In this document: piece after piece, positions 45,003 through 61,408 of the stretch | Layout of the letters: each line of letters starts with the position of its first letter | Position numbering within the stretch: the first letter of the stretch is position 1 | From: Clostridium sp. MSJ-8 | GTDB taxonomy: Bacteria > Bacillota > Clostridia > Clostridiales > Clostridiaceae | Assembly: GCF_018918325.1 (NCBI RefSeq) | Contig: NZ_JAHLQH010000043.1 | Span: 1-64,000 of the forward strand | Direction: 5' to 3' | DNA length: 64,000 nucleotides | Notes under the pieces: generated by a model | The model's database searches: none | Seen by the model: only the letters and a program-made list of their open reading frames with translations | Told to the model about the DNA's origin: nothing | Program-made: the position numbers and the translations under genes

Positions 45003-46799
45003 CTATAATTTAATGTTATAAAACTTCCTTGTATTCTTATACTTTTCACTTTTCCAACTAGGGAAAGTAGAATTTTTTAAATTGTTCAAAATCTCCTTAT
45101 CATCTAATTCATTAATTTCATCTTCATTATTATCATAAATACAATAATACTTCTTTGTATAATCATAAAATAGAACTGCTTTATATTTTTCAGTCCTAAA
45201 ACATTTAAAGGCTCTTCCACTATCATAATCATTTCTTTTCTTTGCAACATTCAAATTGTATTCTGCATAAGTAAAATCTCTGTCAACTTCAACGTAATCT
45301 CTTTGATTAATACCTTCAAATACATCTCTATTATTAATTAAATTTATAATTAAATCTTTTGTATCTAAATGACTAAATAATGGTGTATACTCATACTTTT
45401 TATTTATATTTAAAACAATATAAGGAATATGTATATAGTCTTCACAATAATAATTATTATCTTTTATATTTTTATCATTTTGAATAATAGCACCATGATC
45501 TGAAAATAAAATAACTCTTGTTTCATCACCAACAATATTCATAAAAAATTCTATTTGACTATCTATGTATTTTAATGCTTCGTTATGCTGAAATTCTTCT
45601 AAATCAACATCTTCTATCGTATCTAACCAAAAAGCAGGAATCTTTTTTAATCTTTTTTTATTGACACCTGAAAAAAATGGTTGATGTGATTCTAAAAAAT
45701 GTAAACAATATAATGTGTTAGTATCACTATTTAATGCATTACATAACCCTCTCCATATTATTTCACTAATATTGCTATTACTTTTATTAATTATATTCTC
45801 TTCTTTAAATAATCTTGTTCTACACCCCGCATATTTAAACTCATAATTTAGCTTTTTTATTTCTTTAAATAAGTCTTCATCCTCATCTATTAAATTTTTG
45901 TCATATACATCATCATCTAAATATTTTTTCCCTGTAAACAATGTTAACAAACTACCAGTAGTATATGGTACATGGGTAAATGCATTTTTTATAATTACTC
46001 CGTTACTAGCTCTCTTTTTTACATACTTCATTTTATTACCATCAAAAACATCTTTATATCTTAGTGCATCACATATTAACATAAACACAGAATTTGTATT
46101 TGTATTTTTTCTTATAAATTCAAATTTAATCTCATTAAGAATAGATTCTATTTTTTCTTTTAACACTATTATATTACCCTTATTATACTTGCTAATATAA
46201 ATTTCCATAAATTTAATTGAGTTTACAAAATCCCTAATATCCAGATAATTATAGATTAAGCTTAATAGATATCTTTCTTGATTTGTTTTTTTATATTTTA
46301 TATATATATAATTTAACTTATAATACTTATCATTATAATTAACCTCATAGAAAGCATTTTTTAATGCCATTCCTCGTTTACTTAATTCATCATATAGCAT
46401 TATGTATTCACAATAAGGCTTTATTTTTTTTAATTCTGTTTTTATTTCTTTTGAATATCCTAAGGAAGGTATTAATACAATATCAAAATCATATTCATTC
46501 ACATCATTATATCCAATTACATTATAACCACTTAATTTATATCCATAATTATATTTATCAATTATACATACTATTTTATCCTTATTTTCTTTTACAATAT
46601 CCAATATTTCAGTAGTAGAAACACCTGCTGTAGCAATAGCAATTCTTTTATTACTCAACATATCATTCCAGATGTTAATAATCATTTTATTAACATTCGA
46701 TTCTCCACATTCTATTTTGTATTGTTCTTGAATTTCTTGTTCATATATATCAATATTTGATTCATTTATAGCTTTTAATAATTGTGAATTATAATCCAT
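45003..46799 (-). CDS. Rossmann-like module fused to a sulfatase / alkaline-phosphatase-fold domain
   Basis: The N-terminal 145 residues carry a Rossmann-like module (RIAIATAGVSTTEILDIVKE, VCIIDKYNYGYKL, DFDIVLIPSLGYSKEI). The C-terminal part has the metal-centre architecture of the sulfatase/phosphoethanolamine-transferase superfamily: NSVFMLICDALRYKD (first metal Asp), HVPYTTGSLLTLFTGKKY around the expected nucleophile Thr/Ser, HFLESHQPFF and VILFSDHGAI. No membrane helices are visible, unlike lipid-A EptA proteins, so it is probably cytosolic. It may transfer or remove a phosphate- or sulfate-linked group on the glycan precursor. Activity is not determined. Confidence 0.75.
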   Translation of the reverse strand: MDYNSQLLKAINESNIDIYEQEIQEQYKIECGESNVNKMIINIWNDMLSNKRIAIATAGVSTTEILDIVKENKDKIVCIIDKYNYGYKLSGYNVIGYNDVNEYDFDIVLIPSLGYSKEIKTELKKIKPYCEYIMLYDELSKRGMALKNAFYEVNYNDKYYKLNYIYIKYKKTNQERYLLSLIYNYLDIRDFVNSIKFMEIYISKYNKGNIIVLKEKIESILNEIKFEFIRKNTNTNSVFMLICDALRYKDVFDGNKMKYVKKRASNGVIIKNAFTHVPYTTGSLLTLFTGKKYLDDDVYDKNLIDEDEDLFKEIKKLNYEFKYAGCRTRLFKEENIINKSNSNISEIIWRGLCNALNSDTNTLYCLHFLESHQPFFSGVNKKRLKKIPAFWLDTIEDVDLEEFQHNEALKYIDSQIEFFMNIVGDETRVILFSDHGAIIQNDKNIKDNNYYCEDYIHIPYIVLNINKKYEYTPLFSHLDTKDLIINLINNRDVFEGINQRDYVEVDRDFTYAEYNLNVAKKRNDYDSGRAFKCFRTEKYKAVLFYDYTKKYYCIYDNNEDEINELDDKEILNNLKNSTFPSWKSEKYKNTRKFYNIKL

Positions 46800-46839
46800 A
46801 TATTATCTTCTCCCTCCTTATTAGATATTCTGTATACAA

Positions 46840-47991
46840 TTAACTATTATCACGCTTTAATATACATCTCATTAATGTAGGATTAGAATCAGCTAATTTA
46901 GCATATCCCTTAGCTTCTTCCAATTCTACAATATCAAAACCTCCAAGATGTAATACTTTTTCTTTAAACTTGTCTACATTTATAAACCTTCTATAATGAT
47001 TGTTATAAATATATTCATTATCCCCAATCTTCTTACCTTTACCATATATATCATCATTAATTGTTCTTGCTTCTATAAAAAAGTATCCATTATCTTTTAA
47101 TGATTCTTTTACATTTAACAATAACTCTGTTTCTTGTTTTTCATTAATAGTATATAAGGTAAATCTACTATATATATAATCATATTGTTGTTGAAAAATA
47201 TTTTTAGAACTTACAAAATCATCACATATAAATAATGAATTACTATCAACTATTTCATTATTTAATTTATTAATAACATAGTCTGATGAATCTACACCAA
47301 CAACATTTAAATTATTATTTATAAAGAATTTACTATCTCTCCCATTACCACACCCCAAATCAAGTAATATTTTATTTGGGGTTATATAAGACATTATATA
47401 TTTTGCAAAACTTGTTGGATCCACAATTGTATTAAAACTTTTTTCATAAAATCCATTCCAATAATCTATATTATTAATAATTGATGCTTCTCTATATTGA
47501 TAATTCAAAATAATATCCATACATTCTTTTACAGAATATCTTCCATCATTATTAATAATAATATCAGGATTCTTTGGAAATTCCACTTCAACATCAATCC
47601 CCACAACATTGCTTTTATTATCAGAATATAAGCCTTTTTTATTTCTCTTTAACAATACTTCTATATCTACATCTAAAAAAACTTCTATATATTTGTCTAT
47701 ATTATTACGATTCCATTCTCTTATTTCATCAAACATTGCAATAGTACATATTACTACATTAATCCCTTGGTCTACTAACATTTTGCAAATATTAGAATAC
47801 ACTCTTGCACGTTTTTTTCTATCTTCATATGAATATCCTGATATTTCTTTTGAAATATTTTTCAATATATCCCCATCTAAAATTACTGTATTAGATTTTT
47901 TCTTTTTTATTTCATAATATAACATATTACCTATAGTTGTTTTTCCAGAACCAGCCAAACCTGTTATCCAATATAATATACCCTTTTCCAA
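46840..47991 (-). CDS. APS-kinase-like kinase fused to a SAM-dependent methyltransferase
   Basis: The N-terminal 170 residues are an adenylylsulfate-kinase (CysC) fold: ILYWITGLAGSGKTTIGNML is the P-loop, followed by VILDGDILKN and RVYSNICKMLVDQGINVVIC. The C-terminal 215 residues are a class I methyltransferase (KILLDLGCGNGRDSKFFINN, GVDSSDYV, FICDDFV). I place the start at TTG 47991 because TAGGAGTAGAGAG lies just upstream; the frame is open to 48051. No sulfate-assimilation genes are nearby. CysC-like kinases also act on surface-glycan precursors (Campylobacter capsule), so a kinase-plus-methylation role in glycan decoration is inferred. Confidence 0.78.
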   Translation of the reverse strand: MEKGILYWITGLAGSGKTTIGNMLYYEIKKKKSNTVILDGDILKNISKEISGYSYEDRKKRARVYSNICKMLVDQGINVVICTIAMFDEIREWNRNNIDKYIEVFLDVDIEVLLKRNKKGLYSDNKSNVVGIDVEVEFPKNPDIIINNDGRYSVKECMDIILNYQYREASIINNIDYWNGFYEKSFNTIVDPTSFAKYIMSYITPNKILLDLGCGNGRDSKFFINNNLNVVGVDSSDYVINKLNNEIVDSNSLFICDDFVSSKNIFQQQYDYIYSRFTLYTINEKQETELLLNVKESLKDNGYFFIEARTINDDIYGKGKKIGDNEYIYNNHYRRFINVDKFKEKVLHLGGFDIVELEEAKGYAKLADSNPTLMRCILKRDNS

Positions 47992-48075
47992 ATTCTCTCT
48001 ACTCCTATTAACATAATAAATTTTTAGTACTATAAAAAATATAAAACGCACTTAAATATACATATATTTAATCTA

Positions 48076-49353
48076 TTATTTAAAACAAATATCAAAATAG
48101 CATTGTATAGCTTCATCAAAATTCATAGGAATATCAAATATTCTATTATTTAAGTAATAAAGCTTATTATTAAATTCATTAGGCAATCCTAAATGTTTTA
48201 TTACAGATGGATAAACTACTTCACACATATGATTATAAGGATATTTATCTAGCCATTGCTCTATATAATCTTCCTTTATAAAGCTTTTATCCTTTATTCC
48301 TATATACTCTAATATCCTAATTGAATATTCCTTAACAACAGATGCCTTAGGATGATATGGACAATAAAATAATGCCTGTTTTTTATAATTTTTTAATATA
48401 TAATCCGAAATATGTACATCACATTGTTTTTCTAACAATTCTAATCGATTAAATTCTTCTTTTTCAAAATTATTAATAAACTCTTTACTATAAAAATCTT
48501 CTTTTTTTATAATATTTAAAAATTCATTAACATCTCCATTCTTATTCTCTCTTAAATATTTGATTATATTTTTATCACGACATTGTATTCCTTCCCAATC
48601 AAAATCATTGTACCCACAAAAAACCTCATTACCATCTTGAGGAAAATATCCATTAAATTTCATATTCATTATTTTAATTATTGTATAATTTTCTTTATTA
48701 TTTAGTGATAATTTCTTTATTATGTTATTAAATGAATATTCTTTTCCAAAATAATTTTCTTCTCTTATAATTTGAGTAATAAGTAAATTACACTCTTTCC
48801 ATAATAAATTATCATTTATAACTTGTTTTAAATTTTGTGTATCCCAAATTGGAGGAATTGTAATGATAATATATTTTTCTGCAAATTCTACATTATTTAT
48901 CAAAAACCTTCTTATTCCATCAGCTTGACAATTTCCATATATAATCACACCTTTTAAACTTTTCTTCATTTTTTTTATAATTAATTCTAGTGCATCTATA
49001 TTATTATTTACTATATTTTTCAGCCTAATATAATCTATATGATTATATTCTAAACACCAATAAGGAATATAATCATAATAAATATTTTTATTACTAGCTA
49101 TTAATTGATTTGCTATTTCTTTTTCATATTTATCGGTTGAGATTATAATTAGAGCATTAATATTTTTATTATATTCAAGAAACTCTTTGTAACTGTAAAC
49201 TTTTATTCCATATATATATTTATCTTTCTCTTTTAAGTTATTATCTATAAAGGCTACTACATCATATTTTTTTCTAAATTTATAATAAGTCTTAATGCCT
49301 ATAATCCCACAACCAAATATAGCTATTTTAATTTTATTATTATATAAAAACAT
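48076..49353 (-). CDS. Rossmann-like module fused to a WcbI-like polysaccharide biosynthesis domain
   Basis: Residues 1-115 form a nucleotide-binding module (KIAIFGCGIIGIKTYYKFRK, VVAFIDNN, ALIIISTDKYEKEI). A WcbI-type domain begins at about residue 135 with GVIIYGNCQADGIRRFLI, the GNCQ motif of capsule-biosynthesis WcbI proteins, and runs to the end. WcbI binds CoA and is suspected to be an acyltransferase. Total length 425 against about 300 for WcbI alone reflects the added module. It probably acylates a glycan; acceptor unknown. Confidence 0.75.
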   Translation of the reverse strand: MFLYNNKIKIAIFGCGIIGIKTYYKFRKKYDVVAFIDNNLKEKDKYIYGIKVYSYKEFLEYNKNINALIIISTDKYEKEIANQLIASNKNIYYDYIPYWCLEYNHIDYIRLKNIVNNNIDALELIIKKMKKSLKGVIIYGNCQADGIRRFLINNVEFAEKYIIITIPPIWDTQNLKQVINDNLLWKECNLLITQIIREENYFGKEYSFNNIIKKLSLNNKENYTIIKIMNMKFNGYFPQDGNEVFCGYNDFDWEGIQCRDKNIIKYLRENKNGDVNEFLNIIKKEDFYSKEFINNFEKEEFNRLELLEKQCDVHISDYILKNYKKQALFYCPYHPKASVVKEYSIRILEYIGIKDKSFIKEDYIEQWLDKYPYNHMCEVVYPSVIKHLGLPNEFNNKLYYLNNRIFDIPMNFDEAIQCYFDICFK

Positions 49354-49389
49354 ATCTTTCTCCTTAATTAATAACTAGATTTAATATAC

Positions 49390-50436
49390 CTATACTATAA
49401 TTTCCTTGCTTCCTATAGGTGGATCATAAGACACTTTTCGAACAATATCTTGTTCATTTTTTAAAATTTCTTTCAATTCATTACTACTTAATTTAACCCA
49501 ACTTTTCATTTTTTTATATTGCTCATTTTTTATTATATTTTCATCGAAAACTGGAGCCAACTGTAAATATCTTTTTGCACTTATCATTTCATCTGCTTTT
49601 AACATTTTTAATGTATACCTTAAACACATTGAACCTAACTTCTTTATGGCTTCATTATATCTCTCAATTACATTCTTATATTTAAACTCATTTCCTAATT
49701 TTAAAAAATAATTTATTATTTGATAATGTTCAAAAATTCCAAATAAATTTATTTCAGAAACATTAGTCTCATTTCCACTATGAATTCTATAATTACAAAG
49801 AGGTTCTTTTATATATCCAATATCAGAAAAACATGAGAATAAAAAGTTCTGACACCAATCTCCTGCTACTTGTAAACTTAACATAAAAGGATCTGTTTTA
49901 TTAAATATACTCCTCCTACATACTACTTGAGATGGTACTGCTATTCCTGACATCATAAAAACAGAAGCTTGTGCTTCTCCATCAATAATACAAGATTTAT
50001 TATAAAATGGTGGCTGCTCATATACCTTGCCAAATTCATCAACTTCATTCCTATGAGTCATAACCATTCCAACATTTTGATTATCAATTAATATTCTCAT
50101 ACATTTTTCTATGAATGTAGGTTCTAAATAATCATCTGATGATAAATACATCATATAATCTCCTTCACAGTCTCGTGCACACTTACAACTATTCTTAAAG
50201 CTTCCTACATTGTATTTATTCCTCGATACTGAATAAAATATTCCTCTCTCTTTAAATTTAGGTATATAAGATAATGCTACTTCATATGAATTGTCTAAAG
50301 AATTATTATCTCTAAAAATAACTTCATAATTCTCATATGTTTGATTTAAAACACTATCTAAACACTGTTTTAAATAACATCCATAATTATAATTTGGAAT
50401 TAATATACTTACTAAAGGCATTTTATTACTCATCAT
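49390..50436 (-). CDS. GT2 family glycosyltransferase (paralogue of the gene at 43908)
   Basis: Family 2 glycosyltransferase with SILIPNYNYGCYLKQCLDSV, FRDNNSLDNS and YLSSDDYLEP (DD motif). The sequence and length follow the 43908 product throughout, including the helical C-terminus (VIERYNEAIKKLGSMCLRYT). The two are paralogues within one island. Adjacent ATGs at 50436 and 50433 are both possible after AGAGGTGG. Substrate unknown. Confidence 0.88.
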   Translation of the reverse strand: MMSNKMPLVSILIPNYNYGCYLKQCLDSVLNQTYENYEVIFRDNNSLDNSYEVALSYIPKFKERGIFYSVSRNKYNVGSFKNSCKCARDCEGDYMMYLSSDDYLEPTFIEKCMRILIDNQNVGMVMTHRNEVDEFGKVYEQPPFYNKSCIIDGEAQASVFMMSGIAVPSQVVCRRSIFNKTDPFMLSLQVAGDWCQNFLFSCFSDIGYIKEPLCNYRIHSGNETNVSEINLFGIFEHYQIINYFLKLGNEFKYKNVIERYNEAIKKLGSMCLRYTLKMLKADEMISAKRYLQLAPVFDENIIKNEQYKKMKSWVKLSSNELKEILKNEQDIVRKVSYDPPIGSKEIIV

Positions 50437-50459
50437 TCCACCTCTTATTATATTTCTTT

Positions 50460-51752
50460 CTATAATTGTTTTTTAAAATCAATATATCCTTGTTCAGCTG
50501 CCTTAGCTGTTTTTCCTTGTGCCTGACAATGGCCACAAACTTCATAATATGGCTTATCAATAAATTCAATTATCTTATTTTTTAATTCTTTAGAATCTTT
50601 ATATTGATCAAATTCAATATAATCTTCCTTATAATCAGCTATTCCTAAATTATAAACTGCTGCAGCAAAATCGCACGGATGTAATTTTCCATTTTTTATC
50701 ATCATACATCTTGGATTATGAGTACAATTTTGTTTTTTATTAATAAGTTGTTCTTTTGTCATGTTCTTATTATATAATGTTGATGGAACTATCCATTCAG
50801 GCATAGGTACTCCTACTGTATACGCTATTCCACTATCTTTTACCTTTTCAATACTTTGATGCATTATCCCCCTTAACTTTTCTGATATACTTGGTTCATA
50901 ATTTGAAAAACTAACATTAACTCGCTTGTCATTTAAGTATTCTAATTGCTCATTTTTTATTGGAAATGTACCTGAAGTTGCAATACAAATTAGCCCAATA
51001 TTCTTTTTACTTAATAATTTTTTCACAATCAATGCTAAATCAGGATGCATAAATGGCTCTCCCCCCATAACTGTAACTGATCCAACACTATCAATAGCAT
51101 CAAAAAATTCATCTATATCTTTTTCAATTCTACTTAATGGAATATTTATTCTATCTTTAACTGGATATTCGTTCATATATGATGTACAACACTTACACTT
51201 TAAACTACATCTCTGATTGATTGTAAGGGTTACATGAAAAATAGAAAAATGATTTTCTTTTAAATTGTTATTTTTTACAATATTGTCTAGTCTTTCACAA
51301 AACATTGCTCTACAACACATACTTCCTTGACATACCTTTGAATCAATTCCTGTCTTATTATCAAACTCACATACTATGCCTTCATATAAATAATCTCCTC
51401 TTAGAACATACTTATACCCTTTGCTATCTAATTCAAATAATAATTGTCCTCTAATTACATTATTTCCAATGCAAAAAATAACTAATGTATTCTCTAAATC
51501 ATCAGTTGTAAATGGCATTATTGTATCAATTCCATTTACTTTACTAATCTCATTACATCTTAAATCCCAATAATTTTCAATATTAACTCCTAAATCAATC
51601 AATTTTTTTCCTACTGCTTTACCTAAAAAACTCGCTCCCCAAATTACTACATGAGAAAATGTATTAATGTATTCTATAACCTCAGCAATTTCATTTTTTT
51701 CTAATTTTCTTCCCGAATGAGCCATTTTATAAAATTCTTCTCTATTAAACAT
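50460..51752 (-). CDS. Radical SAM protein with N-terminal Rossmann-like module (paralogue of 51766 gene)
   Basis: The N-terminal module reads HVVIWGASFLGKAVGKKLID then NYWDLRCNEISKVNG and LVIFCIGNNVIRGQLLFELD. A Cys-rich linker (CQGSMCCRAMFCERLD) follows. The radical SAM core has the 4Fe-4S motif CSLKCKCC and GGEPFMHPDL. A SPASM-like C-terminus has Cys at CTHNPRC, HPCDF and CGHCQAQG. The enzyme would generate a 5'-deoxyadenosyl radical to modify a sugar or peptide. Start is ATG 51752, preceded by AAGGTGG; the longer frame to 51854 runs into the upstream gene and lacks an SD. Confidence 0.85.
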   Translation of the reverse strand: MFNREEFYKMAHSGRKLEKNEIAEVIEYINTFSHVVIWGASFLGKAVGKKLIDLGVNIENYWDLRCNEISKVNGIDTIMPFTTDDLENTLVIFCIGNNVIRGQLLFELDSKGYKYVLRGDYLYEGIVCEFDNKTGIDSKVCQGSMCCRAMFCERLDNIVKNNNLKENHFSIFHVTLTINQRCSLKCKCCTSYMNEYPVKDRINIPLSRIEKDIDEFFDAIDSVGSVTVMGGEPFMHPDLALIVKKLLSKKNIGLICIATSGTFPIKNEQLEYLNDKRVNVSFSNYEPSISEKLRGIMHQSIEKVKDSGIAYTVGVPMPEWIVPSTLYNKNMTKEQLINKKQNCTHNPRCMMIKNGKLHPCDFAAAVYNLGIADYKEDYIEFDQYKDSKELKNKIIEFIDKPYYEVCGHCQAQGKTAKAAEQGYIDFKKQL

Positions 51753-51765
51753 ATAATCATCCACC

Positions 51766-53034
51766 TTATTTTTTATTAACAAAATCAAAAAATCCCTGTT
51801 CTCCTGCCATAACTGTACTTCCACCACCATCACCACAATGGCGACATGAATCATAATATTCTTGATTCATAAATTTCTCTATATCTTCTTTTAAATTTTG
51901 GCTATTAAGATTAACATAATCATTTTTATAATCAGCAATTCCAATCTCATGTAACGATGCACTAAATAGACAAGGATATAACCTACCATTTACAACTTGC
52001 ATACATCTAATTGGAATCCTACAATTTTGCTTCTTTCTCTTCATAACTTCAATTGAATAATTCTTACTCCATAATGTAGGTGGTATAGTCCATTCTGGTA
52101 CTTTAACACCTACAGTATGTTGAACATTATATTTTTTCATAAGTTCTATATTCTTGTAGTAAATATCTAATTTTTCCTTAGGTAACGCATCATAATACCC
52201 TGAAAATGCAACATTTACTCTTTCATTTGCTAATTTTTTTATTTTTTTTTCATCTATTTTAAATATTCCATTCGTTGCAATTATTACTATTCCAAAATTC
52301 TTTTCTAAAAGTTTCTTTACTATTTGGTCAATATCCTTATGTAGAAATGGCTCTCCACCTTGTATTGTTATCGATCCTACAGAATCAACAACACTAAAAA
52401 TATTATCTATATCATTACTAATTTGTTCATATGTAAAAAACTTTCTTTTAGCATTATCATAACTATTCATATATGCAACACAGTATTTGCACTTTAAACT
52501 ACAATGTGTTGTTATCATAAAAGTCAAATTAGGAATATATAATCCACCTTTGTCATTTTTATTTTTTATAATGTTATGTAATCTATCGCAGAACATACTT
52601 CTACATTCCATTGTTTGACTACAAACATTCGCTTTTATTCCAATTTCATTATTAAAAGGGCAACAAATACCTTTGTATAAATCTTCACCTAATAAAATAT
52701 TTTTATATCCATTAGAATTTAATCTTCTAATTAATTGTGCTCTAATTGCAGTATTGCCTATACATAAAATAATTAAAGTATTCTCATTATTATCATTACT
52801 AAAAGGAGCTATAACTTCAACATTATTTACTTGTTTAATTTCATCATAACGTAAATCCCAATAATATAATATTTTCACTCCTTTTTCTAATAATTTTTTA
52901 CCAATAGCTTTTCCTTGAAAACTTGCTCCCCACAATATAACTTTTTCATAGGATTTAATATAATTTATTATTTCTGTATCATCAACACATCTTCCAGTAG
53001 AAGCTTCTTCATAAAATTTATTTAAATCACACAT
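51766..53034 (-). CDS. Radical SAM protein with N-terminal Rossmann-like module
   Basis: Same architecture as the following paralogue. Module at residues 30-120 (KVILWGASFQGKAIGKKLLE, LIILCIGNTAIRAQLIRRLN), Cys-rich linker CSQTMECRSMFCDRL (138-152), core 4Fe-4S motif CSLKCKYC (Cys 178, 182, 185), GGEPFLHKD, and a SPASM-like C-terminus with CRIPIRC, YPCLF and CRHCGDGGG. The AGGAGAGG SD fits the ATG at 53034. The many extra Cys residues imply at least one auxiliary Fe-S cluster. The substrate is unknown; a nucleotide-sugar or glycan fits the neighbourhood. Confidence 0.85.
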   Translation of the reverse strand: MCDLNKFYEEASTGRCVDDTEIINYIKSYEKVILWGASFQGKAIGKKLLEKGVKILYYWDLRYDEIKQVNNVEVIAPFSNDNNENTLIILCIGNTAIRAQLIRRLNSNGYKNILLGEDLYKGICCPFNNEIGIKANVCSQTMECRSMFCDRLHNIIKNKNDKGGLYIPNLTFMITTHCSLKCKYCVAYMNSYDNAKRKFFTYEQISNDIDNIFSVVDSVGSITIQGGEPFLHKDIDQIVKKLLEKNFGIVIIATNGIFKIDEKKIKKLANERVNVAFSGYYDALPKEKLDIYYKNIELMKKYNVQHTVGVKVPEWTIPPTLWSKNYSIEVMKRKKQNCRIPIRCMQVVNGRLYPCLFSASLHEIGIADYKNDYVNLNSQNLKEDIEKFMNQEYYDSCRHCGDGGGSTVMAGEQGFFDFVNKK

Positions 53035-53057
53035 TCTTTTCCTCTCCTACAACTTTA

Positions 53058-53150
53058 TTAATAAAAATAACAATCTGTATCCCAAATATTTTTACCATGA
53101 TGCCTTAATGCTATTTTATATTTTCCTTCTGATAAATTATAAAATAAATG
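53058..53150 (-). pseudogene. 3' remnant of an FkbM-type methyltransferase gene
   Basis: About 30 codons survive, with YKIALRHHGKNIWDTDCYFY before the stop. These align with the C-termini of the intact FkbM genes at 56439 (YKLYLRHHTAVVWDTDCYAI) and 60260 (YKVAVRHHANYWVSETVCYC). A stop codon lies immediately upstream and the remainder of the gene is absent. Together with the broken epimerase next to it, this is the remains of a second epimerase-FkbM pair. Between them, at 53166-53273, is a short unidentified tail ending DYCYVVKCMMN. Confidence 0.75.
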
Positions 53151-53259
53151 TTATTTTTTTATCTTTTAATTCATCATGCACTTAACTACATAACAATAAT
53201 CTGAAACAAGTGAATCTACAGCATTAGCTCTTGCATCACTTCTAGAATAGTCAAATTTT

Positions 53260-53695
53260 TTATTTGCAATTCTTTATATATTGCATTTCATTATTTATCC
53301 CCTCTAAAAAATTAGTTTTGTTAACATAGCTTAAATTCTTTAATTTTTCTATATTGGCATTAAGCAAAAATGTCTTATTAATATTTGTACTCTTTACTCC
53401 AAATTTTAAATCTGCTTCAGAATTTATAAAATTTCTAACTGTCATAACATAATCTTTTAATAATCTAGATTCACCTGAAGCTATATTATATATTCCATTT
53501 GTATCAGCATCTTCACCTAATATTCTTAATGCATTAACACAATCATCTATATACATAAAATCCCACATATTTTCACATGGTGATAATTCCAGAACATTAC
53601 CTTATTTCAATATTTTTATCAAATAAGACATTAATGTTCCTTCATTTTCACCAGGTCCATATACACTATATATTCTTGTTCTTGGCCATACAAAT
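53260..53695 (-). pseudogene. Broken duplicate of the NAD-dependent epimerase gene
   Basis: The 3' part still encodes 102 residues (MWDFMYIDDCVNALRILGED to the stop) homologous to the C-terminal third of the intact epimerase at 57572-58453. Bases 53513-53695 differ from 57810-57986 by only four substitutions and a 6-base insertion. One substitution turns a Glu codon into TAA. The N-terminal Rossmann half is missing. The remaining 3' portion is much more diverged from the intact gene, so the near-identical block was probably copied recently by recombination. Confidence 0.85.
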
Positions 53696-53724
53696 TAAAC
53701 ATTTTCTTCATCCCTTTTTTATTA

Positions 53725-54960
53725 TTATTTAAACATAGAATAAATATCATTGATACTAATTATATTATTTAATTTCAATTCATCTAATTCTATTCTTAAT
53801 TTTGAATCATCTTTAATATGTGTTATTATTAGCAAATTATCATAGTTAATTAATTCTTTCGGTGAAATGCATATTTTCCCTCTAATCTCTTTTCCCCACA
53901 TATCCTCTGCATTATCAGAAAAAATAATATTGTCAAAAGCTTCATTCCACCTTTGATTATAGAAGTTATCCCAAAATAGCTTTCCAAGTCCAAAAATGCA
54001 TATATATTTTGCATTTGATAATTTTGACAAAATACTCTTCTGCTCATTATTCAAATTTAAGCATCTATTATTCTTATAATCGGATAACATCTTTTTTAAT
54101 TGATATGCAGGAATCATTGATTTATTCCTTGCAGCTATACATTGTCTGCATAATATATTACTTTCTTCACATTTCATTCCTTTTAATACATCTTGATAAG
54201 CTTTACCTCTTAATATTTCATCTGCAGTCATTTCAACAATATTACCCAATACATGTTGCATTCCATAATCCATACAACATAATATTACAGTACCATCTGG
54301 TAAAATTTCTGGTGCCCAATTTCCTAAACCTGCATTAGTCCCCACCATACATACTATTTCTCCATTTGAATAAACTTCTTCACCTTCACTTAAATTTCCT
54401 GCTCTATTGTTCATTGTTTTACCAACAAAAAGGTTTGTATCAATTATATTTTTTACATCTGGATGAATATTCCCATGGCATGAATAATTAGTAATACTAA
54501 ACATCTGTTGAAATTTAGAAACTATCTCTAAATATTTATCTGTAATTATAAATTTCGAATTTCCTTTATCATCAGGAATATGTAATGTAATTTCATCAAA
54601 TTTTACATCTTTCAAATATTCTAAATCTTCTATTGACGCTCCAATTAATGTAGTCAAGAGTGATATCCTATACCCATTTTCAAATGCATATTTTATCATT
54701 CTAGCACAATTAGGATTATGAAATACTTCACACATACCCGAAAAACAAATTGTACCGCCTCGTTTTACCTGAGTTAAAATTCTTTTAAAAACCTCCATAC
54801 TCATTATAGAATCTAGTTTTTTATTATCACTAAAATATCTATTTAATAATTTTTTTTGTGGACAAAATCTACAATTCAGCTTACATCCCATTGCCAACGT
54901 AACTTCTACCGAATTAAACTTTTTATTATTATCATATTCATATCGCATATATTTACTCAA
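53725..54960 (-). CDS. Radical SAM/SPASM protein with C-terminal Rossmann-like module
   Basis: The 4Fe-4S radical SAM motif CKLNCRFC is at Cys 26, 30, 33 after VEVTLAMG, followed by GGTICFSGMCEVFHNP. A SPASM-like region (residues about 205-275) has VILCCMDYG, CEESNILCRQC and further Cys. The last 95 residues form a Rossmann-like module (KYICIFGLGKLFWDNFYNQR, DNIIFSDNAEDMWGKEI), reversed in order relative to the other two radical SAM genes. The frame opens with TTG at 54960, with GAAGGG close upstream; ATG 54948 is an alternative start. Function unknown. Confidence 0.83.
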   Translation of the reverse strand: MSKYMRYEYDNNKKFNSVEVTLAMGCKLNCRFCPQKKLLNRYFSDNKKLDSIMSMEVFKRILTQVKRGGTICFSGMCEVFHNPNCARMIKYAFENGYRISLLTTLIGASIEDLEYLKDVKFDEITLHIPDDKGNSKFIITDKYLEIVSKFQQMFSITNYSCHGNIHPDVKNIIDTNLFVGKTMNNRAGNLSEGEEVYSNGEIVCMVGTNAGLGNWAPEILPDGTVILCCMDYGMQHVLGNIVEMTADEILRGKAYQDVLKGMKCEESNILCRQCIAARNKSMIPAYQLKKMLSDYKNNRCLNLNNEQKSILSKLSNAKYICIFGLGKLFWDNFYNQRWNEAFDNIIFSDNAEDMWGKEIRGKICISPKELINYDNLLIITHIKDDSKLRIELDELKLNNIISINDIYSMFK

Positions 54961-54992
54961 ACCCTTCTACTTTTTATATCTTTTCTATAACT

Positions 54993-55585
54993 CTAAAATC
55001 CGTGTAAAAAATAATTTGGTACTGAAGTACCTGATAAATGCAAATCCATTGAGTTATTCAACTTATCTAAAAAGAATAATTCTTTTCCTTCTTATAAATT
55101 AAATTCTTTCATTAAATAATTACCAATTCTAGCCCCTGCTCCTTGATAATATTTTTCACTAGTAACTACTACCACCAAATTTTCTCTCTTAATATTTTTT
55201 ATGATATCAGGTCTTTGTACAACATAATTTTGAATAGTATTAAAATCCAACTTGAATTATCCCATATGTCATTAACATTTTTCTGTTGTTTATTAACATC
55301 ACTATCTACTACATAAAATTGCTTCACTCTCTTTAAACAATTATGATATCTTTTAATTGCCCAATGACATTTATCGCCAGCCCCATAAAAAATTAAAGTC
55401 ATATCTTCAAAGTTCTTTTTTGTTATCATTTCAAATATACTTCTTTCAGTTTTCCATGCATCTTTAATCCATTGAGCTTTTTGTATTTCACTTATATATG
55501 ATGCTTTCATCCCACTATAATATATTTGATTTTCTGTTCTTTTATAATATTCACTTAATTTGCAAAGATTTTTATATTTATTCAT
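54993..55585 (-). pseudogene. Frameshifted Rossmann-like module protein
   Basis: The intact frame 55199-55585 encodes LIFYGAGDKCHWAIKRYHNC then QFYVVDSDVNKQQKN. It goes out of frame near 55240. The other frame continues with DIIKNIKRENLVVVVTSEKY and GAGARIGNYLMKEFNL, then a stop and further recognisable residues down to 54993. Restored, the protein would be about 195 residues and consist almost wholly of the module found fused to other enzymes in this island. At least one frameshift and one nonsense mutation are present. Confidence 0.75.
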
Positions 55586-55600
55586 AGTTGTTGTTAAACG

Positions 55601-56425
55601 TTATATTACATAATTTATTGCTTTTTCTTTTAACCATTCAATATCTGGTACATTAGGATTCCAATAAATACTATCAAATTCTTCAGGCTTATATACTTTA
55701 ATAATTCTATCTAAGCCTGAAAATCTGCACACTTCAACTAAACCTGTATCACATTGGTGGGCTAACACAACAGGAACCTCCATAGCTATACATGGAAGTG
55801 CAACATGTAGCCTTCTTGTAACAACTAATTTTGCATTTTCTTTTATTTCTTTCATTATATCTTTATACAACTTTTTACCATACAATTCATTTTCTAAACA
55901 ATACCCTGGCTTAACCATCTTTCGATATGGTGCTGGAATCTCTATATATCCATCTTTAAAAATATTATTCTCTATAATTATGTTACTAAATCTTTAGGTG
56001 GATCATATAAATAAACCCTTCCATCTATTAGCTCTGATTTACGTCTTTTATATCCAATACTCATATATGCTTCTACACCTTGAGCTCTCATTAATTGCAT
56101 TGTATATAAATCTCTACACCAAATAGATTCATAACAACTATATTTTTCTATTTCTTGAGCAATTTTTTCATCTCCAGTAAATCCCCCCTATAAATACAGA
56201 TATTATTTGAGAAGAAAACAGTAAAATTTTTCGATTAATAGTTGAATTAATGGCACATGCCATTGGTAAAACAACATATTCACCCATATAATCATTTAAA
56301 TGATACGCTTCAATTTCTTCTTTAGGAATTTTCATTCTTTTATATGCTTGTCTTAGTCCTTCCACCTGTACGTAATTTCCAATATTTTGCATATAATTTA
56401 AAAACTTTACCATACCATACTTCAT
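55601..56425 (-). pseudogene. Broken polysaccharide pyruvyl transferase family gene
   Basis: The N-terminal piece (56168-56425) encodes LNYMQNIGNYVQVEGLRQAY, a middle piece in another frame encodes FTGDEKIAQEIEKYSCYESI and MRAQGVEAYMSIGYKRR, and the C-terminal piece (55601-55918) has VVTRRLHVALPCIAMEVPVV, the family's conserved SRLH-like block. At least two frameshifts and a stop codon separate them. The intact enzyme would attach pyruvyl ketals or related groups to a polysaccharide. Confidence 0.8.
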
Positions 56426-56438
56426 TTTTTAACTCCTA

Positions 56439-57557
56439 CTAATTAAATATTGCATAACAATCTGTATCCCAAACAACTGCTGTATGATGTCTTAAATATA
56501 ACTTATATTGAGGCGAAATATTCTTTATCCATTTTGGAATCATCCACATATGTTCTAGTTTATGATATACACTAACTGCTAACTTAGGATGATTTTTCAT
56601 AATAATATTCTTACTTCCCTCTAATGCATCAACTTCTGCTCCCTCAATATCCATCTTTATAAAAGTAACCTTTTCATTTTTCAAAATATTATCTAATGCA
56701 TTTAATTCCACATTATATTCCCCTGTATCTCTTTCAATATGAGAAGAAGTTCCATTAGAACACATCTTAACCATATCATATTGGTTAGATAAGCCCATTT
56801 TAAATAACTTAATTCTATTATCATCATATATAGAGAGATTTTTTTTCATCATTTTATAATTAGTACTATCCATTTCAAATCCATATATCTCTTTATATTT
56901 TCCATCTACCGATTTTATAAACTGCAAAATTGAATCTCCATCATATGCACCTGCATCTACAAAACATTCATTATCTGTTAATGAAAAAATACCGCTCTCG
57001 AAATACTCTCCTTTTACTTCCATATCATGAAATTTATTCTTTGAATATTGGGGAGCAATTCTATTACAAATTACATTAACATATACTTCTTTTGATTCCT
57101 CGTCTTCAAATAAATCAATTCCTTCTAGGATCTCTTTTTTATTATTTCTAAACCATTCTGTTGAATAGTGTTCATCATATGAATTTAAATATAAATCACC
57201 AAAATAATAACTTTCCACCCCAATATTATCCAATCCTTTTTTTACTTCAACATAATCTCCAACCATTATTAATGTAACCACATCTTTCATCTTACTCAAT
57301 TCTAATGGAGATAAACATTTTCTACCATCAAAAAATAATCCATGTTTTCTTGAATCTGAGTCGCAAACATAATCATACCTTTTTACATTTTTTACATAAT
57401 CGTTATAAAAATTACCCAACCCGTATAAACATATTTTAGACGCTTCTTTTACACGTTTTCTCACTTTATTACAATAATTGAACATTGCATAATTATCACT
57501 TATAGCCGCATCAATCGCTAATTGTAGTCTTTCTACTAATTCATTATTTCTTACCAA
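56439..57557 (-). CDS. FkbM family methyltransferase with N-terminal Rossmann-like module
   Basis: Expected to O-methylate a sugar or similar hydroxyl using SAM. The N-terminal module at about residues 35-120 (KICLYGLGNFYNDYVKNVKR, YVCDSDSRKHG, VTLIMVGDYVEVKKGLDNIG) precedes the catalytic part with FVDAGAYDGDSILQF, IYGFEMDSTNYKMMKKNLS and TFIKMDIEGAEVDALEG, the FkbM signature. The C-terminus is YKLYLRHHTAVVWDTDCYAI. The start is TTG 57557 after GGGAGTTGAG. It is a paralogue of the gene at 60260. Confidence 0.87.
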   Translation of the reverse strand: MVRNNELVERLQLAIDAAISDNYAMFNYCNKVRKRVKEASKICLYGLGNFYNDYVKNVKRYDYVCDSDSRKHGLFFDGRKCLSPLELSKMKDVVTLIMVGDYVEVKKGLDNIGVESYYFGDLYLNSYDEHYSTEWFRNNKKEILEGIDLFEDEESKEVYVNVICNRIAPQYSKNKFHDMEVKGEYFESGIFSLTDNECFVDAGAYDGDSILQFIKSVDGKYKEIYGFEMDSTNYKMMKKNLSIYDDNRIKLFKMGLSNQYDMVKMCSNGTSSHIERDTGEYNVELNALDNILKNEKVTFIKMDIEGAEVDALEGSKNIIMKNHPKLAVSVYHKLEHMWMIPKWIKNISPQYKLYLRHHTAVVWDTDCYAIFN

Positions 57558-57571
57558 TAATTCTCAACTCC

Positions 57572-58453
57572 CTATTCTTCAGCTTTTCTTTTTATGCCTT
57601 CTCTAAATTTTACTTTTGATTCAAATCCAAGACTTTTTAGTTTCTCAATATTAGGTTCAAGCCAAAAAGTTTTATTTATATCACTTTTCTTTATTCCATA
57701 AGCTACTGCTCCATTGGAATTGACCTCTTCTTTGACCATTTCAACAAATTCCTTAAGTAACTTTGGTTTTCCAACTGAAATATTATAAATACCTTCTGTA
57801 ATATTACTTTCACCTAATATTCTTAATGCATTAACACAATCATCTATATACATAAAATCCCACATATTTTCACATTGTGATAATTCCGGAACATTACCTT
57901 CTTTCAATGTTTTTATCAAATAAGACATTAATGTTCCTTCATTTTCACCAGGTCCATATACACTATATATTCTTGGCCATACAAATGAAATTTCTTCTTG
58001 CTCTGCAACTATTTTACCCATATTATAAGCTGCAAGCTTTGCAGCTCCATACATCATAAATGGATTGCATATTGTTTCATCTTCTATTGCTTGTCCATGT
58101 ACCACACCATATTCAGCTTGACTTCCTGCTCCTATAAACTTTTTGCATCCAAGTTTCTTTGCTACTTTTATTGCATCTGCAGTATATTTAATATTTGAAT
58201 ATTGAATATTAAAATCATTTCTATCATTTCCTGAAGATCCGTTCCATGCCAAATGATAAAATAAATCATACTTTCCTTCTAATTCATTTATTCTATCTAA
58301 GGGTAATTCTATTATATTAACACCTGCTGGTATTTTATTTTTTCTTTTTGTATTTGGTCTTATTACTGCTGTGACATCATAATTATTTTTAAGAAATTCG
58401 TTACATAATGCTACTCCAATAAAACCAGTAGCTCCTGTCATTATTACCTTCAT
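57572..58453 (-). CDS. NAD-dependent epimerase/dehydratase (SDR family)
   Basis: Extended short-chain dehydrogenase acting on a nucleotide sugar. The Rossmann motif is MTGATGFIGVALCNEF, and the catalytic Tyr-Lys pair is in MMYGAAKLAAYNMGK (YxxxK), with SVYGPGENEGT downstream. Length 293 is normal. Its neighbours (thiamine-diphosphate enzyme, RfbH homologue) suggest it reduces or epimerises a 4-keto deoxysugar. A near-identical block has been copied to 53513-53695. Confidence 0.88.
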   Translation of the reverse strand: MKVIMTGATGFIGVALCNEFLKNNYDVTAVIRPNTKRKNKIPAGVNIIELPLDRINELEGKYDLFYHLAWNGSSGNDRNDFNIQYSNIKYTADAIKVAKKLGCKKFIGAGSQAEYGVVHGQAIEDETICNPFMMYGAAKLAAYNMGKIVAEQEEISFVWPRIYSVYGPGENEGTLMSYLIKTLKEGNVPELSQCENMWDFMYIDDCVNALRILGESNITEGIYNISVGKPKLLKEFVEMVKEEVNSNGAVAYGIKKSDINKTFWLEPNIEKLKSLGFESKVKFREGIKRKAEE

Positions 58454-58464
58454 TTTGCCACCTC

Positions 58465-60240
58465 TTATATAAGATTTTTATTAAACTCATCTCTATCAAG
58501 AAGTGGCGACATATCTTCAAGTGGTCTTGATGCCATTTGACCATCTTCTCTCATATAATTAGTTTGTTTTGGTAATATCTTTTGAGTAATGTCTGCCTTT
58601 ACAGTACATATTACTGGACCTTCGTATTCCAAAACTTCCTTTACTTTATTATGTAATTCCTCTTCATCGTCAATATGATATCCTTTTATTCCAAACGCTT
58701 CTGCAATTTTCTTCATATCTGGAAGTGTCAAACCTGATTCCTCTGTACACCCTGTTAAATGTCCTTTAAAATTACCATTTTGAGAGCCATATATCATACT
58801 ATATCCATTATTATCAATAACAAATATCTTAACCGGAAGATTTAACCTCTTTAAAACTTCTAATTCTTGCATATTCATTGCTATACTTCCATCACCAGTT
58901 ATACATACTGTTCTCTTCTTATTAGAAGCTATACAAGATCCTATTGATGCAGGAAGATCATATCCCATGGCTGCCAAACCTTTAGTTAAAAAAGCTCTTT
59001 GTCCTCTTTTTATCCTAAATACTTTCATAGCTATATCAACAGATGTTCCTGAACTTGTAAATTGATATATATCATCAGCAGTCATTTGACTACTTACTTC
59101 ATCAACCAATTTATATGTACTCACATATCCTTTTCTTGGTTCTTGTTCTTTTATAAATATAGGATATCTTTCTTTTAATGAATCACAATGCTCTATCCAC
59201 TTACTTCTTTTATGTAAATCAAGTTCATTTTTTCTTTCTAATAATGCATTTATAAATGACTTAGCATCACAATTTATTGCAAGTGTTGGATGAACACTCT
59301 TTTTCTTCATTTCATTTTCATCAATTTCAACCATAACATGATTAGCTTTTTCTAAAAAACTATCAAAGTTATATCCTGTAGATAGAAGATTTAATCTGCT
59401 TCCTATAGTTAAGACAAAATCAGCATTTTGTTGAATAAAATTAGAATGTCTATGTCCCACAGCACCTGGTCGTCCATAAAATAATGGATTACTATCTTCT
59501 ATAAGGTCTACACCATTCCATGATGTCATAACCGGAATGCCAAGTAATTCATATAATTCTCTAGCTTCTTCTACTGCTCCACTTAACCTTATACCATTTC
59601 CTAATAATAAAACTGGTCTTTCAGATTGATTAAATAACTCAATGGTCTTTTCTATCTCTTCACTCTTACAAGAATAATCATGTTGCTTATTAGCGTCATA
59701 ACTTCTTAGTTTTTCTAATTCTACATCCATTGCTTGTATATCTAAGGGAATATCTATCCATACTGGTCCAGGCTTACCACTTATCGCAATACTAGCAGCC
59801 TTCTCCAATTCATATCTTATATCTTTAGGTTCCTCTATCTGAACTGCATATTTTGATATTGGCTTTGTAACAGAAACTATATCAGCTTCTTGAATTCCGA
59901 ATTGACGTATTTTTTGATTACCAACTAAATCTGCCCTCTTTACTTGTCCAGATATAAATATTACTGGAATTCCGTCATAATATGCTCCTGCTAGACCAGT
60001 TATAGCATTAGTTCCACCAGGTCCTGATGTTACAAGACATGCTCCATATCCTTCATTTATTCTTGCATAGCTTTCAGCAGCTATAGAAGCTCCTTGTTCA
60101 TGAAGCATACATATTCCATTTAACTTTTCATTTTTTCCTAATGAATCATTAAGGTGCATAGCACCTCCACCACTAACAAAGAATATATCTTTTACTCCCA
60201 AGCTAGCTATAAAGTCCATTACATAATCTGATATTTTCAT
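58465..60240 (-). CDS. Thiamine-diphosphate-dependent enzyme, acetolactate-synthase-like
   Basis: It has the three AHAS-type domains. The N-terminal PYR domain carries the catalytic Glu in ICMLHEQGASIAAESYAR. The central domain has PVLLLGNGIRLSGA. The C-terminal PP domain has CITGDGSIAMNMQELEVL then IDNNGYSMIYGSQ, the GDG-x-N diphosphate/metal motif. At 591 residues it fits the family. The start is ATG 60240 after GTGGAGAG; the longer frame overlaps the gene upstream. It is not near ilv genes. Next to an RfbH homologue, it may add a two-carbon unit to a keto-deoxysugar, as YerE does in yersiniose synthesis. Confidence 0.85.
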   Translation of the reverse strand: MKISDYVMDFIASLGVKDIFFVSGGGAMHLNDSLGKNEKLNGICMLHEQGASIAAESYARINEGYGACLVTSGPGGTNAITGLAGAYYDGIPVIFISGQVKRADLVGNQKIRQFGIQEADIVSVTKPISKYAVQIEEPKDIRYELEKAASIAISGKPGPVWIDIPLDIQAMDVELEKLRSYDANKQHDYSCKSEEIEKTIELFNQSERPVLLLGNGIRLSGAVEEARELYELLGIPVMTSWNGVDLIEDSNPLFYGRPGAVGHRHSNFIQQNADFVLTIGSRLNLLSTGYNFDSFLEKANHVMVEIDENEMKKKSVHPTLAINCDAKSFINALLERKNELDLHKRSKWIEHCDSLKERYPIFIKEQEPRKGYVSTYKLVDEVSSQMTADDIYQFTSSGTSVDIAMKVFRIKRGQRAFLTKGLAAMGYDLPASIGSCIASNKKRTVCITGDGSIAMNMQELEVLKRLNLPVKIFVIDNNGYSMIYGSQNGNFKGHLTGCTEESGLTLPDMKKIAEAFGIKGYHIDDEEELHNKVKEVLEYEGPVICTVKADITQKILPKQTNYMREDGQMASRPLEDMSPLLDRDEFNKNLI

Positions 60241-60259
60241 TTTTCTCTCCACTTCTTTT

Positions 60260-61408
60260 TTATTCATCCATATAACAATAACATACTGTCTCAGACACCC
60301 AATAATTCGCATGATGTCTTACCGCCACTTTATAATCTGGATTTAATTTCTTTAAATACAATGGAATATCCCATAAATCATTTATTCTATGATATACACA
60401 TATCGCCATTTTAGGTTTTTGATTTTTTATAATATTGCTACATCCTCTTAATGCTTTCATTTCAGCACCTTCTATATCCATCTTTATCATAGTCACATCT
60501 TTTTCTTTTAAAAAGTCATCCAATTTAACCACTTTAGCTACAGTAGTTTCTTTTGAATTATAAATGCTAAAACTATCATTAGAAGACATTTTTCCATAAG
60601 ATATTTCTTTATTTTCATCGAATACCCCACAATTAAAACATTCTATTTTATTATCTTTATTCCTTTTAGCGCAATTCTCTAATAATGTATTATAATTATC
60701 TTTATCCAATTCAAAACAATAATAATTTTTATATTTATTATTTGTAACCTTCAGAAAATCTTCTAAAGTATCTCCTATATATGCTCCACAATCTACTACA
60801 CTTTCATTATCTGATATTTTCAATAAATCCTTAGGAAAGTATTGTGGTATTGTGCATAATTCTTCATATTTATATTGGGAATATTGTGGTGCTACCCTAT
60901 TACAAAAAATATTCACAAAAACCTTTTTAGATTCTTCATCCTCTAAATACTCAAATGCTTCAAGAAGATCTTTCTTCTGATTATAAAACCATTCTTTGTC
61001 TCTACAGTTATTCATAACATCATCTAAAACCATATCATTATATGTTACAATACTTTTAATACCTAATTTTCTTAATTCTTCTTCAGCACTTCTAGGATCT
61101 CCTAGCATTAAAATAACAGTAACATTATCAAGTTTAGATAATTCTTCTTTATTAACACATTTAATACCAGTAAAATAACCCTTTCTTGTTTCTACTTCTT
61201 TTAACTTCTCTTCATTGCCATCACATAATAAATTTACATTAAATCTATTTTTAACATCTTGTTTTTCAAATGCTTCTTCAAAATATCTTCCAAGTCCATA
61301 TACACAAATATTATCTGCATTATCAATTATATTTCTTTTATCGAAACTTCCAGTTTCAACAGCATAATCAAATGCTTTTATTAATTGTTTTTTATAATCT
61401 ACACTCAT
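60260..61408 (-). CDS. FkbM family methyltransferase with N-terminal Rossmann-like module
   Basis: Paralogue of the gene at 56439. Module at about residues 30-125 (NICVYGLGRYFEEAFEKQDV, LLCDGNEEKLKEV, VTVILMLGDPRSAEEELRKL). Catalytic region with SVVDCGAYIGDTLEDFLKV, YCFELDKDNYNTLLENC and TMIKMDIEGAEMKALRGC. C-terminus YKVAVRHHANYWVSETVCYC. Probably methylates a sugar hydroxyl on the glycan. Start ATG 61408 after AAAGGAG. It lies 11 bases from the aldolase gene and is probably in the same transcript. Confidence 0.87.
   Translation of the reverse strand: MSVDYKKQLIKAFDYAVETGSFDKRNIIDNADNICVYGLGRYFEEAFEKQDVKNRFNVNLLCDGNEEKLKEVETRKGYFTGIKCVNKEELSKLDNVTVILMLGDPRSAEEELRKLGIKSIVTYNDMVLDDVMNNCRDKEWFYNQKKDLLEAFEYLEDEESKKVFVNIFCNRVAPQYSQYKYEELCTIPQYFPKDLLKISDNESVVDCGAYIGDTLEDFLKVTNNKYKNYYCFELDKDNYNTLLENCAKRNKDNKIECFNCGVFDENKEISYGKMSSNDSFSIYNSKETTVAKVVKLDDFLKEKDVTMIKMDIEGAEMKALRGCSNIIKNQKPKMAICVYHRINDLWDIPLYLKKLNPDYKVAVRHHANYWVSETVCYCYMDE

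Follow-up and report, generated by a model that had tools for sequence, protein, structure and literature searches.

A Rossmann half-domain shared by diverse glycan-modifying enzymes in an island beside flagellin genes of Clostridium sp. MSJ-8

Introduction

Nucleotides or nucleotide-sugars are bound by PglD and VioB, sugar acyltransferases with a half-Rossmann N-domain (PglD_N, PF17836), and by Rex, a sensor of NAD(H). Profile comparison places the module described here, a segment of about 95 residues that recurs within one gene island of Clostridium sp. MSJ-8, among PglD_N, the C-methyltransferase C-terminal domain (Methyltransf_14, PF08484), C2185-like_N (PF22674) and the NAD domain of Rex. 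The DNA analyzed, referred to as the window, is the stretch of 64,000 nucleotides from positions 1 to 64,000 of contig NZ_JAHLQH010000043.1, part of a 2.82-Mb genome on 54 contigs. A first-pass annotation of the window had noticed a similar Rossmann-like stretch in eight proteins with different catalytic domains and had suggested a shared ligand or a docking function. We examined whether these segments form one family, to which enzymes they are fused elsewhere, and which role best fits their distribution.

Results

One half-domain in eight window genes

Profile evidence shows the window segments to be copies of one Rossmann half-domain. In BLAST comparisons among the window proteins, named here by their first coordinate, the C-terminal module of the radical S-adenosylmethionine (SAM) protein 53725 matched the N-terminal module of the FkbM methyltransferase 60260 (E 1.5e-8, 30% identity) and the module of 56439 (E 9e-4). 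BLAST also linked two pairs of paralogues, the radical SAM proteins 50460 and 51766 (47% identity) and the FkbM proteins 56439 and 60260. The sulfatase and WcbI modules showed no significant likeness in this pairwise search (E 1.1), and pairwise BLAST by itself was not strong enough to unite the whole set of window modules.

We searched 249 genomes of the phylum, that of MSJ-8 among them, with a profile (A1) of the seven window modules that are intact, and 43 of the genomes gave matches at E<=1e-3. Repeated rounds on 20 stretches taken round A1 matches settled at 76 modules, which a gap separated from other proteins. FkbM-anchored loci were then drawn from FkbM relatives in named genomes as the best 80 of a longer list, and 59 of these held at least one module (E<1e-4), with up to 11 in a single locus of about 20 kb (L105). 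The collection came to 234 modules in 63 partner groups defined by BLAST of the non-module part, and 223 modules were kept after removal of the near-duplicate loci L043, L058 and L069 and the fragment L041_1_1128. The alignment A2 leaves out L043, L041_1_1128 and L054_174, and L069 was left out of the per-locus module counts.

A leave-out profile built from 131 non-window modules, belonging to 57 BLAST partner groups that are unrepresented in the window, was compared with the 57 open reading frames (ORFs) of the window. It found exactly the eight proteins named in the first-pass annotation, at E 4.7e-16 to 1.5e-6 (Table 1), and the best of the remaining 49 ORFs was the sugar epimerase 57572 at E 0.014. 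As regards sequence this test is strict, but as regards origin it is not: the profiles that first recruited the 131 modules had started from those of the window, and Pfam assigns at least one of the carriers (L077_4084) to the radical SAM proteins.

Profile-profile comparison of six partner groups gave mutual scores of 75-132 over 83-95 columns and scores of 16-25 against sugar epimerases, which indicates more than generic Rossmann likeness. Rex, which with the epimerases was one of the only two non-module controls, scored 64-90 against the same groups and so overlaps the between-group range, which qualifies the boundary. The profile comparison that the first-pass annotation had called for thus sets the modules apart from epimerases but draws no clean line at Rex. 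For the window radical SAM pair 50460/51766 the score was highest against Rex (50.1), followed by the FkbM group (43.0), the radical SAM group (34.2) and, over 27 columns, epimerases (33.3). Single window modules were weaker, with hhalign scores of 18.5 for sulfatase against WcbI and 8.3 for sulfatase against the radical SAM pair, and several window-window pairs were near zero.

All eight carrier genes lie on the minus strand, at the coordinates annotated earlier, and the modules stand at the ends of the proteins as described there, except that the sulfatase module is set in from the N terminus. The pseudogene does hold a broken module, as had been proposed, with two open pieces in different frames, the first of which matches the profile over positions 2-42 and the next over 38-67. 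For 50460, whose ORF overlaps 51766, the true start is perhaps the Met at residue 35. Both FkbM carriers passed the Methyltransf_21 cut-off of 22.7 bits (56439 with 55.5 and 60260 with 63.5 bits). A search of the whole genome with the A2 profile (E<=0.01) found nine places, namely the seven window modules, which are strong matches all lying at 46-61 kb of the contig, a Rex-sized protein elsewhere (7.5e-9) and a protein of 280 amino acids (8.6e-5). A citrate-lyase-ligase-like protein (41827) looked module-like by eye and was excluded from the carriers because profile comparison gave nothing, its best score being 19.9.

Conserved features of the module

The module consensus opens with a hydrophobic strand whose last residue is aromatic, followed by GAGxxG, a helix and a second strand ending in D-[NS]-[DN], and continues with KxG, GxxVxxP, a further strand and EIxxxLxxxG. 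Over the 223 modules, Gly5 is conserved in 97%, Gly7 in 85%, Gly10 in 55% and Asp29 in 79%; all three of Gly5, Gly7 and Asp29 are present in 141 of the 223 and in four of the seven window modules. The strand-2 aspartate is present in all seven window modules and Gly5 in six, the sulfatase module having lost the first motif glycine (TAG) while keeping the aspartate (IDKY). The model of FkbM 60260 is confident (predicted local distance difference test, pLDDT, 92.4; predicted template modelling score, pTM, 0.90) and places strands at residues 33-37, 60-62, 83-85, 96-100 and 119-122, with helices between them.

Partner enzymes and loci beyond the window

Repeated fusion to different catalytic domains, noted before for the window, extends well beyond it. 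We scanned with Pfam 60 of the 227 non-window module proteins, picked as representatives, and found a partner family above cut-off in 43 and none in 17. Together with the window, the partners represent no fewer than 29 Pfam families, with overlapping sister models uncounted, and most of these belong to glycan synthesis or modification; since some families share a fold or occur in one protein, 29 families do not equal 29 independent fusions. The window partners above cut-off are Sulfatase, WcbI, Radical_SAM, SPASM and Methyltransf_21. Elsewhere the module accompanies AP_endonuc_2, CTP_transf_like, DUF4422, Glycos_transf_2, Polysacc_deac_1, Methyltransf_11, Glyco_transf_11, TupA ATP-grasp, TOD1_MUCI70, Methyltransf_24, Glyco_transf_56, Glycos_transf_1, PS_pyruv_trans, FrhB_FdhB_C, Glyphos_transf, TylF, PIG-L, WbsX, Gly_transf_sug, MptE-like, Glyco_transf_8, GT-D, Aldo_ket_red and RgpF. 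The position of the module is constant for each type of partner enzyme.

The module is confined neither to this locus nor to the neighborhood of flagellar genes. Clear flagellar gene matches occurred in only three of the 80 FkbM-anchored loci (L135, L073 and L066; flanks of up to 10 kb), a count that leaves out weaker single matches (L104, L096, L100 and L128) and chemoreceptor-type matches (L109 and L112), and most module loci have no flagellar gene in the flanks covered. These counts do not support the idea of a flagellin-specific system, although the window locus itself adjoins flagellin genes.

Discussion

A nucleotide-binding handle as the tentatively preferred role

We tentatively favor, at somewhat less than an even chance, the reading that the module serves each enzyme as a built-in handle for binding nucleotides. 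This reading is preferred because the glycine loop and the ribose-type aspartate are conserved and near relatives bind nucleotides or nucleotide-sugars. The glycine loop and the strand-2 aspartate would hold the diphosphate and the ribose of a nucleotide, most likely as part of a nucleotide-activated sugar, and here perhaps of a cytidine diphosphate (CDP)-deoxysugar bound for flagellin. The catalytic domain would then methylate, oxidize, acylate or transfer the sugar end, and the clustering of carriers would reflect loci in which substrates stay nucleotide-linked during decoration, with no specific docking code. A broader form of this proposal is unlikely, though by no means far-fetched. The module might be an adapter for activated sugars in general, through which nearly every type of enzyme could gain access to nucleotide-linked glycans. 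In some bacteria entire decoration pathways would then proceed on nucleotide-bound intermediates and be rebuilt as different catalytic domains are swapped onto one common handle.

Several observations weigh against a nucleotide-binding handle. Glycosyltransferases already bind nucleoside diphosphate sugars in the catalytic domain, so that the need for a second site is not evident. Only 55% of the modules keep the third glycine of the motif, the sulfatase module lacks Gly5, and Asp29 is absent in 46 of 223 modules. No window module reaches a Pfam cut-off, the closest being GFO_IDH_MocA (23.8 of 24 bits) and PglD_N (18.2 of 23.4 bits, in 51766; best in the whole genome, 20.9), and ordinary NAD(P) dehydrogenases are also among the PDB profile matches. 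The model of radical SAM 51766 is weak in the module, with a similar order of elements and the third strand absent (pLDDT 69.9, nine sequences). In fold matching of its catalytic part, again with the weak model, SpeY ranked first, and the peptide-modifying enzymes SuiB (13.9) and anSME (13.4) came just behind it, above BtrN (13.2) and DesII (11.0). The catalytic domains filled these lists of fold matches, so that the lack of a given family in them says nothing about the module fold. The clustering of carriers and the frequent second module in FkbM loci, both described below, would be compatible with docking too.

Clustering of carriers and the docking alternative

A docking or assembly domain, by which modules would bind one another or a single shared partner and so keep a cluster's enzymes together in the manner of an assembly line, is possible but on balance doubtful. 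Carriers do cluster. Among A1 matches, 38 of 52 that are not Rex-sized lie within 15 kb of another, against 0 of 20 that are Rex-sized, a class defined as an open frame of 205-250 amino acids with no family test; eight rows from the MSJ-8 genome stand outside this count. Of 151 pairs of neighboring module genes, 150 are co-stranded, and with near-duplicate loci removed the count is 143 of 144. Besides the dense locus L105, 15 module matches lie on a single strand within 24 kb at L040/L041 (G257:C18:669-692 kb), where the partners include GT2, GT11, a deacetylase, TupA and DUF4422. A second module occurs in 23 of the 34 FkbM loci with module that span at least 20 kb. Eleven short proteins of 135-195 amino acids contain little beyond the module, which would suit a docking piece, but they are possibly split genes or contig artefacts and therefore not strong evidence.

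On the other side stand the conserved glycine loop and aspartate, and the modules follow the partner enzyme much more than the locus. The best match overall was on the same partner type for 129 of 180 modules, against 18% with shuffled partner labels. As sampling favors FkbM, the FkbM modules were also dropped as queries, which left 63 of 104 against 7%. The best match on a different partner lay in the module's own locus in only 14 of 171 cases (8.2%), although this is above all 200 shuffles (mean 2.4%, maximum 7.8%), so that a locus-coherent module code is found only weakly. The window pair 53725-60260 belongs to these 14, and its likeness may reflect local exchange. Furthermore, the FkbM module is the sole module in 29 of 56 FkbM loci with module, some of them cut by contig ends, and in 11 of the 34 of at least 20 kb. 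Other modules numbered 1.55 per 20 kb in FkbM loci with module and 0.47 in loci with FkbM alone, which is no clear difference (permutation p 0.07). The idea of one shared ligand per locus is thus supported only in part: carriers do cluster in runs on one strand, but the modules track their partners and many loci hold a single one.

Sensor, relic and generic resemblance

A role as an allosteric sensor, in which NAD(H) or a free nucleotide bound to the module would switch the enzyme in the manner of Rex and its repressor domain, is quite unlikely. Of the ordinary families compared by profile, Rex comes closest (scores as given above; PDB entry 2vt2 at 2.2e-9), but the partners have no evident common need of redox control and the position of the module is fixed for each enzyme type. 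Very unlikely is a structural relic, an old Rossmann domain kept ligand-free for stability or dimerization. Loss of motifs in some copies would suit it, as would the 26 of 95 FkbM anchors that score no module at E<1e-4 (two borderline and some truncated), against which stands the conservation of Gly5, Gly7 and the aspartate across very divergent sequences. Generic Rossmann resemblance without common descent is highly improbable, being largely excluded already by the gap in the leave-out search and the group scores against epimerases, in spite of the Rex overlap and the often unmatched single window modules of different groups.

If the module does bind nucleotide-sugars, its presence would foretell the class of substrate for many enzymes of capsule and flagellin clusters that are as yet unassigned, and would account for the extra 100 or so residues that score below the cut-offs of the scanned Pfam models in every window copy. 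If it were instead a docking or sensing domain, it would mark an organizational layer of bacterial glycan synthesis for which we found no name.

Genomic context of the island

The island of module genes has putative flagellar structural genes, at 11.6-36 kb of the window, on one side and flagellin genes (C8:67512 and C8:69736) on the other, and adjoins flagellin and flagellar genes in the manner of a flagellin glycosylation island. Flagellin_N matches lie at C8:67512, 69736 and 75146, the first 3.5 kb beyond the window end. The best named relative at the locus is a Clostridium sp. metagenome-assembled genome (L060), with 83% identity in FkbM 60260.

Table 1. Features of the window discussed in the text, with E values in the leave-out search for module carriers
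Feature	Coordinates	Strand	Leave-out E	Remarks
Module in sulfatase-fold protein 45003-46799	46371..46652	-	8.6e-11	residues 50-143
Module in WcbI-like protein 48076-49353	49042..49335	-	4.7e-16	residues 7-104; GCGIIG, IDNN
Module in radical SAM protein 50460-51854	51378..51659	-	4.6e-7	residues 66-159; profile match
Module in radical SAM protein 51766-53034	52666..52950	-	7.2e-11	residues 29-123; GASFQG, WDLR; low-confidence model
C-terminal module in radical SAM/SPASM protein 53725-54960	53731..54012	-	2.8e-11	residues 317-410
Broken module	55146..55405	-	1.5e-6 (piece 55199)	pieces 55259-55405 and 55146-55238, two frames
Probable polysaccharide pyruvyl transferase fragment adjoining broken module	55601..55918	-		weak match, 21.0 bits, below cut-off 25.3
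Module in FkbM methyltransferase 56439-57557	57171..57443	-	1.9e-12	residues 39-129
Acetolactate-synthase-like thiamine pyrophosphate (TPP) enzyme	58465..60312	-		profile matches; homologue counts in FkbM loci
Module in FkbM methyltransferase 60260-61408	61019..61318	-	5.9e-10	residues 31-130; confident model, strands and helices alternate
HMGL-like protein near module genes	61420..62241			
RfbH	62272..63588	-		703.7 bits, cut-off 423

The flagellin sugar of this locus may be a two-carbon-branched 3,6-dideoxy sugar linked to CDP, similar to yersiniose. This is suggested by the nearby RfbH, of the CDP-4-keto-6-deoxyglucose 3-dehydratase type, the acetolactate-synthase-like TPP enzyme, the HMGL-like protein and, past the window at L153:2557-3372, what we take to be an RfbF-like glucose-1-phosphate cytidylyltransferase. 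Homologues of the TPP enzyme were found in 14 of 57 FkbM loci with module and in 0 of 20 with FkbM but no module (Fisher p 0.016), and homologues of RfbH showed no association with the module in the same loci (8 of 57 and 3 of 20, p 1.0).

Two Cys-rich copies that we take to resemble the flagellin lysine methylase FliB stand on both sides of the island (38106-39298 and L153:4585-5793), the window copy being split over two ORFs, and an apparent FliR-FlhB fusion, so assigned from its motifs, occupies one ORF of 613 amino acids at 19428-21269. Within the island, 46840-48051 joins an adenylylsulfate-kinase domain to a SAM methyltransferase domain, with a full-length homologue in L129 (47%) and kinase-domain matches in L087 and L078. 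The rejected candidate at 41827-43911 has a citrate-lyase-ligase C-terminal domain behind an N-terminal part of about 500 residues, with a homologue in L086. The region 53035-55918 is a decay zone that holds an epimerase-like fragment (53260-53568), a stretch resembling by eye an FkbM C terminus, the broken module and the probable pyruvyl transferase fragment.

Comparison with known families

The module was not named in the titles and abstract openings surveyed, a coverage outside which most subscription journals fall, and the part of PMC11231755 that was consulted held nothing bearing on it.

PglD_N, the N-domain of the acyltransferases PglD, NeuD and VioB, is, like the module, a half-Rossmann domain of similar length in glycan enzymes, and 24 of 68 modules match it at E<=0.1. 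It differs in its partner, as no hexapeptide acyltransferase was found among the window carriers or the 60 of 227 other module proteins scanned. Methyltransf_14 is matched by 16 of 68 modules (best 1.3e-10), and its cut-off of 23.5 bits was passed by four of the 60 scanned proteins (L050_18257, L053_789, L056_9690 and L092_11795); unlike C-methyltransferases, some of these carriers are radical SAM or aldo/keto reductase proteins, and one is a protein of 167 amino acids, and no window carrier lists the family at E<=1.

Among deposited structures, 2py6 from Methylobacillus flagellatus is an FkbM methyltransferase with the module, and 2g6t, presumably C. acetobutylicum CAC2185 and grouped here with C2185-like_N, has an N-terminal module at residues 3-89 of 306 with a different C-terminal domain. 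Four extra cysteines are the mark of a twitch auxiliary cluster, and the radical SAM carriers have CxxxCxxC and further cysteines, seven of which are invariant in nine sequences. From the twitch radical SAM dehydrogenases SpeY and BtrN, the window radical SAM pair 50460/51766 differs by the extra N-terminal module. Finally, Rex is the nearest non-glycan family tested by profile, and its model gave a weak match to 48076 over the NAD part (22.1 bits, cut-off 217). In Rex this domain is joined to an N-terminal DNA-binding domain, whose place is taken in the window carriers by radical SAM, FkbM, WcbI or sulfatase domains.

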